From: Planctomycetaceae bacterium | Lineage (GTDB): Bacteria; Planctomycetota; Planctomycetia; Planctomycetales; Planctomycetaceae | Length of the DNA stretch: 49,026 nt | Assembly (NCBI GenBank): GCA_014762625.1 | Contig: JABURQ010000204.1 | Span: forward strand, 1 to 49,026 | Direction: 5' to 3' | Shown: piece by piece, positions 44,493 to 49,026 of the stretch | Numbering within the stretch: position 1 is the first letter of the stretch | Layout: every line of letters starts with the position of its first letter | Made by a program: the position numbers and the translations under genes | The notes under the pieces: model-generated | The model's database searches: none | Told to the model about the DNA's origin: nothing | The model's input: the letters and a program-made list of their open reading frames with translations, nothing else

Positions 44493-44691
44493 ATTTACTG
44501 ACGTCTGTCTGAAATTGAGATTGATCGTGAGTGACGGGAGCCTGCCCTCTCTCAGACAATCCTCCCGTGGAAGACGTTCATCCTCTCCAAACAGGGGGAT
44601 TCCGTCAACGGTGAGAGACCGGACTCGGTGCCAATCCACATGACTCGGCAGAGAACCTCAGGGAAATTCGTCAATTCATCACGGGGGCGGC

Positions 44692-45918
44692 TCACTCAGC
44701 GATCTGAATTTCCGCGACGCAGGTCATGCCGAGTTTCAGTTTCGAATCAGGTTTCGGCAGACTGACAAGCACTTCATATTGCTTGAGATCATAATTGGGC
44801 CAGGTGCCGGGCAGAGGGGAATCCGCAATGGAGAGTACCTTGCCGGCGAAGCGATCTTCGGGGAGCGCATCGAAAATCAAAGTGGCCGATTGGCCGGTCT
44901 TGACTTGAGAGATGCGCGTCTCATGAACTTTGACGCGAACCTGCAAAGAATCGAGATCAGGCATGGTGAATAGAACCTGTCTCTCTCGAACTGAGGAACC
45001 GACTTCCAAACCACTTTCCGTGGTACGTCTTGCTGCCTGCACAAGATAGAGCACAATGCCATCACGCGGAGCTACAACACGGCAGCGCTCGCGGGCCTGT
45101 TTCAGAGTCTCTAATTCCTGTCGGACCGTTTTTGCAATCGTTTCGCGAACATTGAGTTCTGAGCCAGCTTGACCGACGCGGGCCTGCTGTTCGAGTTTTT
45201 CAATTTCGAGACGGTGTTGGGACAGTTCGAGTTTCGTCTGGAGATCCTGAGTTCGACGAGGGACTTCCCGAGTTTTGAGATGCTCGATGGTGGCGGATGC
45301 AGCGTCCAGTTCAGCTTGAGAATCGAGAAGCCTCAATCGATTTTCCAATTGCTCACCTCCGGTCAGATTGGCCCCCTTTAAGGCGGCTTCCATCAGAGCG
45401 GTTTTCTGCTTCGTCAACTCAACTTGGCGAGAGAGTTTTTTCAGCTCCAGTCCCAGGTCATTCTCACCGCGGTTTGCGCTCTGAATTGCAAGTTCCGTCT
45501 GTTGAACGGAATCAGTCGCCTGCTCGATTCGGAACTCTTGTTCCAGTTTCGCTTTTTTCAATAAATTTTCGGCTTCTGCGAGAGCCGCTTCGGCCCGGAT
45601 TTTTTCGATCGACTTCAGCTCGATCTGTTCGTCCAGGGCCGAGGTATCGAGTTGAGCCAGCAGGTCTCCCTTTTTCACGGTCTGGCCGTCTTCAATCAGC
45701 CAGAGAATGGTCGATGTTCCGGGAGCCTCGTTAGCGATTTCCACAGCGTTCGCACTTTCCAACACTCCCGCTTCACGAACAGTGTTCTCGATTCGGGAAT
45801 CAAACTGAACCGCCTGACCCAATGGCTGAGCCGCCGTTTCTGATTCCCAGACTTGCCAACAAAGAACACCTCCTGTGAAGAACAACATAATGATGCTGAT
45901 ACGTAATGTTTTTTTCAT
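44692..45918 (-). CDS. HlyD/MacA-like periplasmic adaptor protein
   Basis: The 408-residue protein has an N-terminal membrane helix (LRISIIMLFFTGGVLCWQV), then a biotinyl-lipoyl-like half (GVLESANAVEIANEAPGTS, VKKGDLLAQLDTSALDEQI), a long alpha-helical hairpin of about 190 residues rich in Glu, Gln and Leu, and the second lipoyl half VVAPRDGIVLYL with a beta-barrel region and a final TCVAEIQIAE. This is the membrane-fusion/adaptor layout of MacA-type ABC exporters and RND pumps. The start at 45918 has GGAG seven bases upstream and begins just before the helix. It follows the MacB-domain gene by 71 bp. No ATPase, permease or outer-membrane factor is next to it. Confidence 0.85.
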   Translation of the reverse strand: MKKTLRISIIMLFFTGGVLCWQVWESETAAQPLGQAVQFDSRIENTVREAGVLESANAVEIANEAPGTSTILWLIEDGQTVKKGDLLAQLDTSALDEQIELKSIEKIRAEAALAEAENLLKKAKLEQEFRIEQATDSVQQTELAIQSANRGENDLGLELKKLSRQVELTKQKTALMEAALKGANLTGGEQLENRLRLLDSQAELDAASATIEHLKTREVPRRTQDLQTKLELSQHRLEIEKLEQQARVGQAGSELNVRETIAKTVRQELETLKQARERCRVVAPRDGIVLYLVQAARRTTESGLEVGSSVRERQVLFTMPDLDSLQVRVKVHETRISQVKTGQSATLIFDALPEDRFAGKVLSIADSPLPGTWPNYDLKQYEVLVSLPKPDSKLKLGMTCVAEIQIAE

Positions 45919-45927
45919 GGCGAGGCT

Positions 45928-45961
45928 CCACTGAGTCACTGTTAACCAATGTGTCATTGTT
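45928..45961 (-). repeat. Imperfect 16-bp tandem repeat before the adaptor gene
   Basis: On the minus strand AACAATGACACATTGG (45961-45946) is followed after TT by AACAGTGACTCAGTGG (45943-45928). The two agree at 13 of 16 positions with an 18-bp period. The first copy holds a palindrome, CAATG-aca-CATTG. It fills most of the gap upstream of the adaptor ribosome-binding site. Confidence 0.5.
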
Positions 45962-45989
45962 GACAAACTCCCGTCGCGACAGGAATCAG

Positions 45990-46730
45990 TTATTTCACGG
46001 GGTGTATTTCGTAGTCATCTCGCTCGTGGCTTGCGTTTAATAACAATCGAATCACGCGCAGAGTCCGTTCAGGGCGAACGCCGTCCTCCAGGATCACTTC
46101 GACTCGACTGATTTCGTAGGAAGTCGCCTCAAACGCCCCGGCTCTGTGAAGGATTTGATCGTCTCCAAAGCGAGATTTCATAGTGGTGATCGGAATCCAG
46201 ACAGATTGACCGAACTCCCGACCGGTGTCTTTCACAACTCCCACGATCAGAAAATAATCCTGTCCAATTTTGAGATTACGTCCGATCGCCTCTGAGATTC
46301 TCTTGCCGAAGAGATCCCGAGCGACACCTTCACCAATCACGGCAATGTTCTGATGAGTGACGATATCTTTCTTTTTCAAAAATCGCCCTTCGAAATTCTG
46401 GGGAGAAATCTTCCGAGAAAATTCCTGAGTGGTTCCGTGGATTTCGGCCTCGGAATTTCGGTCCGCATAACGGACTTGCGTCTGGAACGACCGGACTGGG
46501 ATGACCGCCGCAACGCCCGGAAGCAGTCTTTCAAAACTGTTGACGTCTTCGCGCGTCACGCCGTATCGATTGATGAACGAGGACTGCGAAGAATTCAGCT
46601 TCACACTCTCAATCACAATCCGTTGCGGGGCTTCCTGAGCGGTACAATGCGGAGAATCAACGAACAACGCGATTGCGAAAATGGAACCAGACAGGATCAG
46701 GAGAGAACGATTTATCACCGGCAATCTCAC
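45990..46730 (-). CDS. Stand-alone MacB-type periplasmic core domain, exported
   Basis: The 246-residue product has a signal peptide (about 1-31, ending TAQEA) and then a domain like the periplasmic core of MacB/FtsX-class ABC permeases: VTREDVNSFERLLPGVAAVIPVR, QVRYADRNSEAEIHGTTQEF, RFLKKKDIVTHQNIAVIGEGVARDLFG and IGRNLKIGQDYFLIVGVVKD, the usual order (extruding loop, G-x-x-F-family strand pairs, VIG-V-DLFG, VGVVKD). There are no FtsX transmembrane helices before or after and no ATPase gene near, so this is a soluble, orphan version. GTG start, weak ribosome-binding site. It lies directly upstream of the adaptor, suggesting a pair in the periplasm. Function unproven. Confidence 0.75.
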   Translation of the reverse strand: MRLPVINRSLLILSGSIFAIALFVDSPHCTAQEAPQRIVIESVKLNSSQSSFINRYGVTREDVNSFERLLPGVAAVIPVRSFQTQVRYADRNSEAEIHGTTQEFSRKISPQNFEGRFLKKKDIVTHQNIAVIGEGVARDLFGKRISEAIGRNLKIGQDYFLIVGVVKDTGREFGQSVWIPITTMKSRFGDDQILHRAGAFEATSYEISRVEVILEDGVRPERTLRVIRLLLNASHERDDYEIHPVK

Positions 46731-46748
46731 TTACTTAGTTCGAAGAGG

Positions 46749-46763
46749 CGTCTTATAAAGACG
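46749..46763. promoter_or_regulatory. Small perfect hairpin upstream of the MacB-domain gene
   Basis: CGTCTT-ATA-AAGACG forms six pairs with a 3-nt loop. It is located between the stop of the 46-codon ORF and the start of the MacB-domain gene on the minus strand, a position suited to an attenuator or operator. No T-run follows on the minus strand, so it is not a standard terminator. Confidence 0.3.
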
Positions 46764-46825
46764 ACGCGATCATTATCGTGAGTCTACGCGAAATCTCACA
46801 CCATCTCCAATTTTCTTTGAAATCC

Positions 46826-46966
46826 TCAAATACGCCGATCGATCAATGCAAAAGATCCTTTGAGCCAATCGACTAACGAAATTGAATTCTGTTTGGAGGC
46901 GCGCATCACAATGCATTCTTCGACGACGTCTCGATCTTGGAGAAACCACAATTGGATGAGCGACAT
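46826..46966 (-). CDS. Small ORF, 46 codons
   Basis: MSLIQLWFLQDRDVVEE starts this 46-residue frame, which ends in FALIDRRI. It is supported by AAAGGA nine bases before the ATG, a better site than that of the larger gene downstream. It has two Trp and two Cys-free hydrophobic patches, one Cys (residue 18) and no clear signal peptide. I recognise no family. It lies 95 bp upstream of the MacB-domain gene on the same strand, with a hairpin in between, so it could be a small partner protein or a leader peptide. Short length makes a chance ORF possible. Confidence 0.4.
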   Translation of the reverse strand: MSLIQLWFLQDRDVVEECIVMRASKQNSISLVDWLKGSFALIDRRI

Positions 46967-47050
46967 GGTAAATTATCCTTTGTTTATAGTTGACGGGCGG
47001 ATAGTATAAAGAGTCCTGGATTCACCACATGCCTGGATGAGGATGAAGAA

Positions 47051-48394
47051 ATGCGACTTATCAAATTCGCAGTGATGGCGTCGATCGCGGTACTTTACTT
47101 CGATTCCTGTGAGGCCGCTCAGAAACTTCCTGTTCCCTCCGAACAGGAGCAATCGACCGCTCAAAAAACGATCGACTCCACTTACAGGAACGCATTTCGC
47201 GCGTCGAGAACCTCGCCGCAAAAAAATGCCCTTGCAACTCAACTGATGAATGAAGCGGCTTCTTCACAATCCCCCGCAAATCGGTTTGCTTTGTATATGA
47301 CTGCAAAAGACCTCTATGTCGATGCAGACCAGCACCACAACGCCATCAAGGTTTTGAAGAAAGCCGAGACCGATTTCTCGTTTGATGGGACCGAGCAAAT
47401 CAAAGAAGTTTTGATTGATGCCGGTCGAGCGCGAGTCGATGCCTTTGGTCGTTATCTGATTTCCTACGACTATCGGGAGGCGGTATTAAATTCGCTTCAA
47501 GATGGCGATCTCAAACTGGCGGAAACGCTCGCTGAGCATGCTGAAGATTCCGCTCGCAACTCCCGAAACAAAGAACTTTTAGACGCCGCAAAGCAACTGG
47601 TCAACGGAGTGGAAAATTTCGCTGAACAACAGGAGAAATTAGATGCTCTTCGTGACACGCTTAAATCCAACCCAGGCGATCCAGCGGCGAACCTGGAAGT
47701 TGGTAAATACGTCTGTCTCATAGAACAGAACTGGCAAGAAGGTTTGAAACTCCTGCAAAAATCAGGAAATCTGCAGTGGTCATTAATCGCCGGTACAGAA
47801 CTCGCGGAGAGTCCCAATGCCTTGAAAGCAGGTGATGTGTGGTGGGAAGTTGCGGAAACACTTCCCGAAATCTATCAAATGCTGGCTCAACGCCGAGCTG
47901 CCTACTGGTACGATCAAACTTTGGAGACGTTGACCGGAATCGAACAAACAAAAGTCGAACAAAGACTCGCGTCACTCAATCCTCAGGTGAAGGTGACGGG
48001 AATGGCAGCCCGACCGAACCAATTCCAAACGAGACTGGCGAACGATCGGCATAAAGGTTCTGCCGCCTCAGCGGTTAACACAGAGAACAACATCTACTTT
48101 CTTGAACTACGCAAGGCTCAAAAACTGAATGCACTGAGGCTCCGGTTTAATGCAGAGATGTCTGGAGAAGGTAGAAGCCACGGCAATATCTCCCTCAGTC
48201 TCGATGGCGAGACCTGGTTCAAAGTTGGGGATTGGTCAACGGAAAGCTGCCAACGCGCGGCAAATTTTGCAAACTGGAACGAGATTGTCCTCCAGGCAAG
48301 CGATCTTCTGACCATCGAACGCATGGCCGTCAAATTTGATTACACCGGCGGTTCACACGGGTTATACATCTACGAGGTCGATCTGGTTCAATAA
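47051..48394 (+). CDS. Exported TPR-like protein with discoidin-like C-terminal domain
   Basis: The 447-residue product has a short signal peptide (1-22, ending CEAA). Residues 30-310 are helical with TPR-like features: FALYMTAKDLYVDADQHHNA, SLQDGDLKLAETLAEHAED, NPGDPAANLEVGKYVCLIEQNWQEGL in two overlapping parts, and GDVWWEVAETLP followed by QRRAAYWYDQTLETLTG. This region is common in exported and kinase-linked planctomycete proteins and has no assigned function. Residues 345-447 (FLELRKAQKLNALRLRFNAE, SLDGETWFKVGDWS, FDYTGGSHGLYIYEVDL) look like a carbohydrate-binding jelly roll of the F5/8-type (discoidin) class. GAGG lies eight bases before the ATG. It stands alone beside the repeat-rich tract. 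Confidence 0.8.
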   Translation: MRLIKFAVMASIAVLYFDSCEAAQKLPVPSEQEQSTAQKTIDSTYRNAFRASRTSPQKNALATQLMNEAASSQSPANRFALYMTAKDLYVDADQHHNAIKVLKKAETDFSFDGTEQIKEVLIDAGRARVDAFGRYLISYDYREAVLNSLQDGDLKLAETLAEHAEDSARNSRNKELLDAAKQLVNGVENFAEQQEKLDALRDTLKSNPGDPAANLEVGKYVCLIEQNWQEGLKLLQKSGNLQWSLIAGTELAESPNALKAGDVWWEVAETLPEIYQMLAQRRAAYWYDQTLETLTGIEQTKVEQRLASLNPQVKVTGMAARPNQFQTRLANDRHKGSAASAVNTENNIYFLELRKAQKLNALRLRFNAEMSGEGRSHGNISLSLDGETWFKVGDWSTESCQRAANFANWNEIVLQASDLLTIERMAVKFDYTGGSHGLYIYEVDLVQ

Positions 48395-48460
48395 TGAATG
48401 TTGAGATAAAATTCCTTGGCGTGAGCCCACTTCTTCTTGCCACTCGTGTCGTCGGGAATC

Positions 48461-48492
48461 CATCAGCGAAATCCGCGTCATCCGCGGTCTCA
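48461..48492. repeat. CATCCGCG-type interspersed sequence
   Basis: CATCAGCGAAATCCGCGTC followed by ATCCGCGGTCTCAC is, read on the minus strand, a GCGGATGACGCGGATTTCGCTGATG string. Near copies of this kind of string are widespread between genes in planctomycetes and other phyla. A related partial copy (TGCGGTCATCCGTTGGATCG) occurs near 48650-48670. Confidence 0.45.
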
Positions 48493-48496
48493 CAAT

Positions 48497-48526
48497 TTTT
48501 GGATTTTTTGATTCCTGATTTTGGAA
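48497..48526 (+). repeat. TTTTGGATTTTTTGATT direct repeat, copy 1
   Basis: The 30-base stretch TTTTGGATTTTTTGATT-CCTGATTTTGGAA recurs at 48792-48820 with one length change and one or two substitutions. Confidence 0.6.
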
Positions 48527-48556
48527 CGGTGCTTGGCCTCTTGTGCTCACGCCACC

Positions 48557-48604
48557 CGTTTCATCCGTGTTCCTTGACCTCTTTGCGTTTCTCTGCGTCT
48601 CATT
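48557..48604. repeat. TTTGCGTTTCTCTGCGTC-type interspersed sequence
   Basis: The segment includes TTTCATCCGTGTTCC and CTCTTTGCGTTTCTCTGCGT; on the minus strand it reads ACGCAGAGAAACGCAAAGAG. I recognise this word pattern as a common intergenic sequence of many bacterial phyla. Its origin is not known to me. Confidence 0.45.
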
Positions 48605-48707
48605 GACTTTGCGTCAAACACAATGGTCCGCCAAGTGAGCCCTTCAGATCTGCGGTCATCCGTTGGATCGGCGTCATCGGCGTTCCAATTGTTCTACCCC
48701 TCTCAAT

Positions 48708-48730
48708 CACTGGCGAACAAGTCGCCAGTG
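48708..48730. repeat. REP-like perfect hairpin
   Basis: CACTGGCGA (48708-48716) and TCGCCAGTG (48722-48730) form a 9-bp GC-rich stem with the loop ACAAG. Similar CACTGGC...GCCAGTG palindromes are recurrent in planctomycete intergenic DNA. No T-run follows, so a terminator role is unlikely. Confidence 0.6.
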
Positions 48731-48791
48731 CCACCCAAGTTTGGTCTTGTTCTCGGACTCGTACCAAAGTTAGCGTTCGGGGGTTATTCGA

Positions 48792-48820
48792 TTTTGGATT
48801 TTTGATTTCCGATTTTGGAA
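48792..48820 (+). repeat. TTTTGGATTTTTTGATT direct repeat, copy 2
   Basis: The 29-base stretch TTTTGGATTTTTGATTTCC-GATTTTGGAA repeats the element at 48497-48526, 295 bp away. Confidence 0.6.
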
Positions 48821-48861
48821 TCCGGAATTCCAGATCGCGATCTTTGACAATTTGAATTTTA

Positions 48862-48926
48862 TTAGTTGTTCTTGGTCAGTAGTTAGTTGCCAAGAAGAAA
48901 CTAGAAACTGGCAATCAGCAACTAGA
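48862..48926. repeat. Patch of reiterated TAGTTG / CAACTAG words
   Basis: TTAGTTG (48862), GTTAGTTGCCA (48882-48892), AACTAG (48899), AACTGGCAA (48906-48914) and CAACTAG (48919-48925) form interleaved direct and inverted short repeats. The style is like the AAGTGTTAAGT words around the S23 gene at 8904-9340. Confidence 0.45.
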
Positions 48927-49026
48927 GAAAGACAAGGAGGTCACATCACTGATATCTGTCTCCTGAATCCTGTTTCCCGACTCCTCGCGTCCCAAACAGT
49001 CGTTGTAGGTCGGGTTAGCCGAGCGC

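Follow-up and report, generated by a model that had tools for sequence, protein, structure and literature searches.

A transmembrane-less MacB-type periplasmic core paired with an adaptor lacking the membrane-proximal domain in planctomycetes

The core gene and the adaptor gene

Two adjacent genes near one end of a 49,026-base stretch of a Planctomycetaceae genome (the window, which is the whole of contig C73 of that genome) encode a MacB-type periplasmic core and a periplasmic adaptor. The core open reading frame (ORF; 45990-46730, reverse strand) has a GTG start and specifies 246 aa without the transmembrane (TM) helices of a permease. Its stop codon lies 23 nucleotides (nt) ahead of the adaptor ORF (44692-45966, reverse strand; TTG start, 424 aa), whose product is of the periplasmic adaptor/membrane-fusion type but has no membrane-proximal domain. 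The ATG at 45918 is the likely start of the adaptor, and the part homologous to other pair adaptors begins there. With the searches described below, the number of TM-less (orphan) cores rose to 17, in 17 genomes, and these were compared with the cores and adaptors of canonical MacAB-type operons.

The original prediction, made from the letters of the window, had described the 246-residue protein as a MacB-type periplasmic core and nothing more, and this description held. Pfam MacB_PCD matched the protein with 83.8 bits (cut-off 27) over profile positions 49-200 of 207; the NCBIfam models ADOP and MacB also matched, both below cut-off. An AlphaFold2 model built from a 42-row alignment of window and locus proteins (pLDDT 89, pTM 0.80) aligned with nine MacB periplasmic-region entries at Z 16.5-20.5 over 169-196 residues. 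The best PDB match was MacB 3ftj (Z 20.5, 195 residues aligned, 4.4 Å); MacB 5gko gave Z 20.1 (196 residues, 3.1 Å) and 5nik_J gave Z 18.3 (190 residues, 2.6 Å). Foldseek agreed that MacB is the nearest fold, and another fold for the protein was thereby excluded.

The N-terminal segment of the core (about residues 1-31; 46638-46730) is probably a cleavable signal peptide with its cleavage site between CTA and QE, as suggested by a hydrophobic stretch and low pLDDT at residues 1-30. It is followed by the N-terminal half of Porter (about residues 36-72; 46515-46625), the approximate boundaries of which were taken from the secondary structure of the model and from the layout given in PMC5985334. 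Sabre (about residues 73-207; 46110-46514) comes next and then the C-terminal half of Porter (about residues 208-246; 45993-46109), all on the reverse strand, and the chain stops where permeases continue into their remaining helices. A crude hydropathy scan found a single hydrophobic stretch in the window core, the N-terminal one, and the scan and the ORF ends placed no FtsX helices in it. The 23-nt gap before the adaptor ORF is too short for TM2-TM4 to fit there. Across the whole set, 0-18 aa follow the core in 17/17 orphans (one of them truncated at a contig edge; the additional core of genome G937, described below, excluded), compared with 140-168 aa in 26/26 permeases. Sabre of the window core also lacks a 21-residue loop of its canonical relatives. 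This loop is 21 aa long in 25/25 canonical cores and bears a GGS-type motif in 24 of them, whereas in the orphan cores it is shortened to 6-17 aa and the motif is absent (0/17). Two orphan cores are extended at the N-terminus, that of G162 by a region of about 200 aa (locus L033, 8005-9318, reverse strand, residues 1-200) and that of G431; neither extension matched a Pfam domain.

A HlyD/MacA-like adaptor had been predicted directly after the core. The gene is there, but its product is not a complete MacA. The protein matched Pfam HlyD_D23 (50 bits) and HlyD_3 (47 bits), had RND_mfp, MacA and EmrA among its NCBIfam matches, all below cut-off, and aligned throughout with planctomycete MacA-like adaptors in sequence. 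It contains lipoyl, alpha-hairpin and beta-barrel domains of the MacA type. The first lipoyl half (about residues 62-108; 45643-45783), placed by Pfam, alignment and model, is followed by a long alpha-helical hairpin (about residues 109-294; 45085-45642) and, as the C-terminal end of the protein, by the beta-barrel (about residues 331-424; 44695-44976), all on the reverse strand. The canonical tip motif is absent from the hairpin, whose modelled arms of about 90 residues would, as helices, be roughly 13 nm long. The AlphaFold2 model of the adaptor, from a 28-row alignment of window and locus proteins (pLDDT 88, pTM 0.64), found its top solved fold in EmrA 4tko (Z 19.6, 323 residues aligned, 5.5 Å). 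With MacA 5nik_D (Z 15.8) only chain residues 32-302 were aligned, and the same range was aligned with 9qgy_G, an entry of MacAB-TolC-YbjP that is presumably MacA (Z 17.6).

What the adaptor lacks is missing from all or nearly all pair adaptors. After the barrel, 0-9 aa remain in 15/15 pair adaptors, compared with 89-322 aa in 29/29 canonical adaptors, whose tails begin with the membrane-proximal domain in the alignment. Pair adaptors, ending no more than nine residues past the beta-barrel, are thus without this domain. A hairpin-tip motif like MxRKGYxT was present in 13/13 canonical adaptors in the alignment and in 1/15 pair adaptors; other tip definitions gave 26/29 versus 0/15 and 25/29 versus 1/15, with some matches outside the tip. 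The comparison is with planctomycete relatives and not with E. coli. Inspection by eye and a simple A-x-A search found N-termini resembling cleavable signal peptides in many of the pair proteins, and on simple inspection no clear membrane anchor was seen in any of the 15 pair adaptors.

A canonical counterpart in the window's own genome, a MacA-like adaptor of 745 aa (L038, 4099-6336, forward strand), extends past the membrane-proximal domain and has a weak EF-hand match, below cut-off. D-x-D-x-D-G repeats like those of this protein are visible in several other canonical adaptors.

Distribution, descent and conservation of the pair

Relatives of the core occur in 163/170 genomes of the family, and most of their frames measure about 450 aa. 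Ranked next after the window itself were the TM-less cores of G162, G085 and G088, all three followed immediately by an adaptor gene. Profile searches added five TM-less cores from a 397-genome sample of the class and eight from 241 genomes of the family to which G418 belongs. The cores were chosen from the top of these searches by frame length and then inspected, and the search was not exhaustive. Pair genomes numbered 4/170, 8/397 (a sample that overlaps the 170-genome search), 11/241 and 3/196 in the individual searches. A phylum sample of 392 genomes, searched at E 1e-50, contained the pair in two, both found by other searches; beyond the class it held no short frames, those of 423-695 aa being uninspected. 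The profile score does not separate orphans from canonical cores (211 bits for the orphan of G831, 218 bits for the best canonical core), so a low-scoring orphan, or one that is much extended, may have escaped the search. Short-frame candidates in five further loci (L107-L111) were rejected as canonical permeases cut at contig ends, L109 being judged by position only.

Recurrence of the two genes as a pair, which the original prediction had proposed to look for, exceeded chance. An adaptor lies directly downstream of the core and on the same strand in 15/15 loci uncut by a contig end. The two remaining loci, in G264 and G874, end at a contig edge; the G264 adaptor opens contig C51 (388 bits), and no pair adaptor was found in G874, a genome 88% complete. 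Taken by mechanical ORF ends, eight of the 15 loci have overlapping core and adaptor genes (4 nt in seven, 41 nt in the eighth), and in the other seven the two genes are separated by 7-90 nt. A profile of eight pair adaptors scored 305-539 bits on 16 pair adaptors, eight of them in the profile, whereas no other adaptor in the 17 genomes exceeded 256 bits. Gene order is always core before adaptor in the pairs, whereas canonical operons have the adaptor first: it is upstream of the permease in 27/28 canonical loci, and the 28th (L175) is cut by the contig start. G937 additionally encodes a second TM-less MacB-type core (L163, 1848-2606, reverse strand; Pfam 75.4 bits), which lies downstream of the adaptor and begins with a cysteine-rich segment, possibly a lipoprotein signal.

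Phylogenetic analysis of 17 orphan and 25 canonical core sequences placed the orphan cores on one side of a 100/99 branch. Pair adaptors likewise formed one side of a 100/100 branch in a tree of 15 pair and 13 canonical rows, the latter being 13 of the 29 canonical adaptors. Core and adaptor distances were correlated across the 15 pairs (Mantel r 0.85; 0/9999 permutations as high). Six close comparisons by two methods gave dN/dS values of 0.085-0.346, with dS at or above 1 in some; judged by these values, orphan cores and pair adaptors are under purifying selection. Entropy per column rises more in Porter, on the stalk side, than in Sabre (rank test p 0.002-0.019 for eight boundary choices), and the barrel is equally conserved in pair and canonical adaptors (mean entropy 1.50 versus 1.51).

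These data bear on the reading that the pair is a decayed or mis-assembled MacAB operon, its core being a permease truncated recently or by an assembly error. Homology to MacAB parts is clear and the presence of the pair is patchy (4/170 family genomes, with both genus-mates of the window's genome lacking it), as such decay would have it. Set against this, the 17 genomes fall on one branch, the genes are under purifying selection, the gene order is reversed, three of the pairs are in single-contig genomes (G088, G418 and G923), and the gap between the two genes of the window is too small for the lost parts. We regard decay as very improbable. A frameshift or assembly truncation was rejected on the same lack of space and on the occurrence of TM-less cores in 17 genomes. 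A split MacB with a core-less permease elsewhere was partly excluded by an FtsX survey of the window's genome, in which 12 FtsX matches fell in 10 open frames. Eight of these frames also had MacB_PCD above cut-off; the remaining two are one frame on contig C32 with MacB_PCD below cut-off and a 1192-aa frame on C112 with two FtsX matches.

Motor, permease and possible roles in the envelope

No ATPase, permease or outer-membrane factor had been noticed beside the pair in the original prediction, and the 49-kb window indeed contains no match to the MacB-class ATPase query and no PCD gene besides the pair core. The query, one ATPase from the genome's own canonical operon, was run with phmmer at E 1e-8. 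It detected no ABC ATPase in 17/17 pair loci (4-15 kb each, 49 kb for the window); the case of a truncated MacB with its ATPase alongside, which had been raised as an alternative, was found in none of them. Further flanks of 18-19 kb in four genomes with long contigs (G162, G088, G418 and G923) included two ABC ATPases, at distances of about 12 and 16 kb, but lacked additional PCD genes. An outer-membrane channel was likewise not detected: at E 1e-3, queries taken from upstream of ten canonical adaptors, of which only one (L038) is a Pfam-confirmed OEP, had no match in the pair loci. In an all-against-all comparison of neighbouring genes, one single-linkage cluster spanned 5/17 loci, its scanned member being a sulfatase, and the remaining shared neighbours occurred in two loci each. 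A Pfam scan of ten neighbours revealed no common theme, and the all-against-all comparison no transporter family common to pair loci beyond one genus.

By current understanding, MacB cores act by mechanotransmission from the ATPase through the membrane helices to the core, and the membrane-proximal domains of the adaptor switch the MacB ATPase on. The pair resembles MacAB-TolC, a type VII ABC exporter, in the Porter/Sabre fold of the core and in the lipoyl, hairpin and barrel domains of the adaptor. It differs in having no nucleotide-binding domain, FtsX helices, membrane-proximal domain or clear adaptor anchor, in the reversed gene order, and in that no outer-membrane channel gene was found in its loci. 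PMC5985334 describes the beta-barrel and membrane-proximal domains of MacA, and not the hairpin, as contacting the MacB periplasmic domain; the earlier statement that the MacAB core contacts the adaptor hairpin was therefore wrong. Activation of the MacB ATPase depends essentially on membrane-proximal domains (PMC8277102). The joint absence of this domain and the ATPase is coherent, because the MacA domain both contacts MacB and activates its ATPase.

From the domain content and the absences, the conserved pairing, the single branch for all members, the co-divergence and the purifying selection, all of which are read in the sequences, we favor the explanation that a planctomycete MacAB-type exporter gave rise to the pair, which would now form an unpowered periplasmic complex of core and adaptor that is probably fully soluble, and we give it about an even chance. 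For a pair without ATPase, helices or membrane-proximal domain, mostly without the tip motif, and with barrel and Sabre kept, the most plausible reading is an unpowered, soluble assembly whose core would sit on the barrel ring. In the direction of change that we infer, the exporter ancestor would have lost the ATPase, the FtsX helices and the membrane-proximal domain of the adaptor; the hairpin-tip motif in nearly all members, and probably the membrane anchor of the adaptor, would also have gone. Of the adaptor, the lipoyl, beta-barrel and long hairpin domains would have been retained, together with the Sabre/Porter core. The adaptor would presumably still oligomerise, as MacA was crystallised as hexamers, and the free core would dock on the beta-barrel ring as in MacAB. 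So docked, the pair would make a periplasmic holder or strut, closed or capped, to which a molecule of the envelope would bind but by which it would not be pumped. A more specific form of this idea is a transporter-free machine, in which an adaptor ring with a long coiled-coil tube, closed at its barrel end by free MacB cores, would act as an energy-independent cage, strut or carrier; we put it forward tentatively and expect it to be somewhat less probable than its negation.

If the favored explanation is true, parts of a pump have been re-used as an unpowered envelope complex, which in the more specific form would be of a new kind. A pair without motor or motor-switching domain that is under purifying selection is a natural experiment on what core and adaptor do together. 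It would allow the structural roles of these parts to be told apart from their energetic ones, and the tripartite-pump family would gain an unpowered class. Because the proteins appear secreted and may be soluble, their binding is directly testable.

Several observations weigh against the unpowered complex. Sabre of MacAB is contacted by the membrane-proximal domains that are missing here, so binding between core and adaptor could be lost. An ATPase is likewise missing from the fetched stretch in 8/28 canonical loci despite a PCD permease, and the missing neighbor ATPase is for this reason weak evidence by itself; the lack of FtsX helices is strong evidence, that of an adjacent ATPase alone weak. 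(The canonical permease loci in question are L173, L176, L178, L183, L185 and L186, together with L107 and L175, which are nearer contig ends; their ATPase is presumably encoded elsewhere.) As to solubility, the crude hydropathy scan showed a second hydrophobic stretch in the G372 core, within the domain, and the N-terminal hydrophobic segment of the adaptor in a few members (G085, G162) could, from its sequence, be a membrane anchor. The G418 pair adaptor has a tip-like stretch, VAKQGFES, and the strict E. coli RLS pattern near the tip occurs in 0/13 canonical planctomycete and 2/15 pair adaptors, perhaps by chance. The window's own core was flagged as a long branch in the core tree, and shared inheritance of linked genes alone can produce co-divergence. 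The stronger retention of Sabre was not significant when highly conserved columns were counted (Porter 8 versus 20, Sabre 31 versus 37; Fisher p 0.17).

A further such point is that each of the 17 pair genomes encodes three or more additional MacB_PCD genes and one or more additional adaptors of the family, which makes a trans-acting role possible. In this main rival explanation, the pair acts on resident MacAB-type pumps: the adaptor would join or block MacA rings and the free core would compete with the MacB periplasmic domain, thereby tuning or inhibiting export. It would also agree with the better conservation of barrel and Sabre, the parts at the MacAB interface. However, relatives of the core are near-universal (163/170), so their co-presence says little; sequence identity between the window core and the 25 aligned canonical cores is only 26-31%; and canonical operons adjoin none of the pairs in the 17 loci, nor do they occur within about 18-20 kb on either side in the four genomes with long contigs. 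We consider action in trans rather unlikely.

The adaptor might instead serve an RND, MFS or ABC transporter encoded elsewhere, in the manner of EmrA and DevB, and the core would then be an accessory. Pair adaptors share with EmrA/DevB-type adaptors the missing membrane-proximal domain and the long coiled coil, and EmrA is the highest-scoring solved fold. EmrA is without a membrane-proximal domain (PMC4158417), and DevB appears to be so in PMC8277102, where adaptors of transporters without periplasmic domains are stated to lack the domain, DevB being a possible exception. The partner of EmrA is an MFS pump and that of DevB an ABC pump, whereas the partner gene of the pair adaptor encodes a free MacB core. 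In G318 (L104, 1-4187) and G372 (L106, 1-3931), an RND-pump-like protein, identified without a Pfam scan, and a second adaptor (Pfam HlyD_D23 in G318) adjoin the pair on the same strand, and the tip-like stretch of the G418 adaptor would also fit a transporter. The RND-like neighbors, though, have an adaptor of their own and are confined to two genomes of one genus, and the other pair loci share no transporter family. The membrane-proximal domain is missing in 15/15 pair adaptors and the tip motif in 14/15, and none has a clear anchor; these three parts contact the MacB-type transporter, the outer-membrane channel and the inner membrane, respectively. A distant transporter is improbable in our estimate. 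The two inferences of the original prediction have thus diverged: a pump-free envelope system fits better, and an adaptor serving a distant pump has been weakened.

The unpowered core-adaptor complex also invites comparison with LolCDE-LolA and YbbAP-TesA, whose transporters contain the same core fold (LolE 5udf, Z 15.6; YbbP 9ge7, Z 13.1). In these type VII ABC systems the periplasmic domain engages a soluble periplasmic protein (PMC12646458). The core of LolCDE or YbbAP is part of a membrane transporter, whereas that of the pair is a free, probably secreted protein. Among the titles and abstracts listed by searches of an open-access library, none described the pairing of an adaptor with a free MacB core; the parts are already known, and their transporter-free assembly is new within the scope of these searches.

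Surroundings of the pair in the window

Downstream of the pair are a glutamyl/glutaminyl-tRNA synthetase gene and a Ham1-family gene. Upstream and divergent lies an ORF of 447 aa (47051-48394, forward strand) with a secreted-looking N-terminus; it had no significant family match, only weak ones such as a galactose-binding domain at E 0.096. A scan for sigma-70 promoters and terminators gave results near chance. In the genus-mates G051 and G052, the gene order beside the tRNA synthetase is kept, with one gene missing in G051. Upstream of the synthetase, at the place of the pair (window 44640-49026), the genus-mates (L191, L192) carry genes of 502 and 1013 aa. These different genes at the pair site mark the contig end as a point of rearrangement, insertion or loss.

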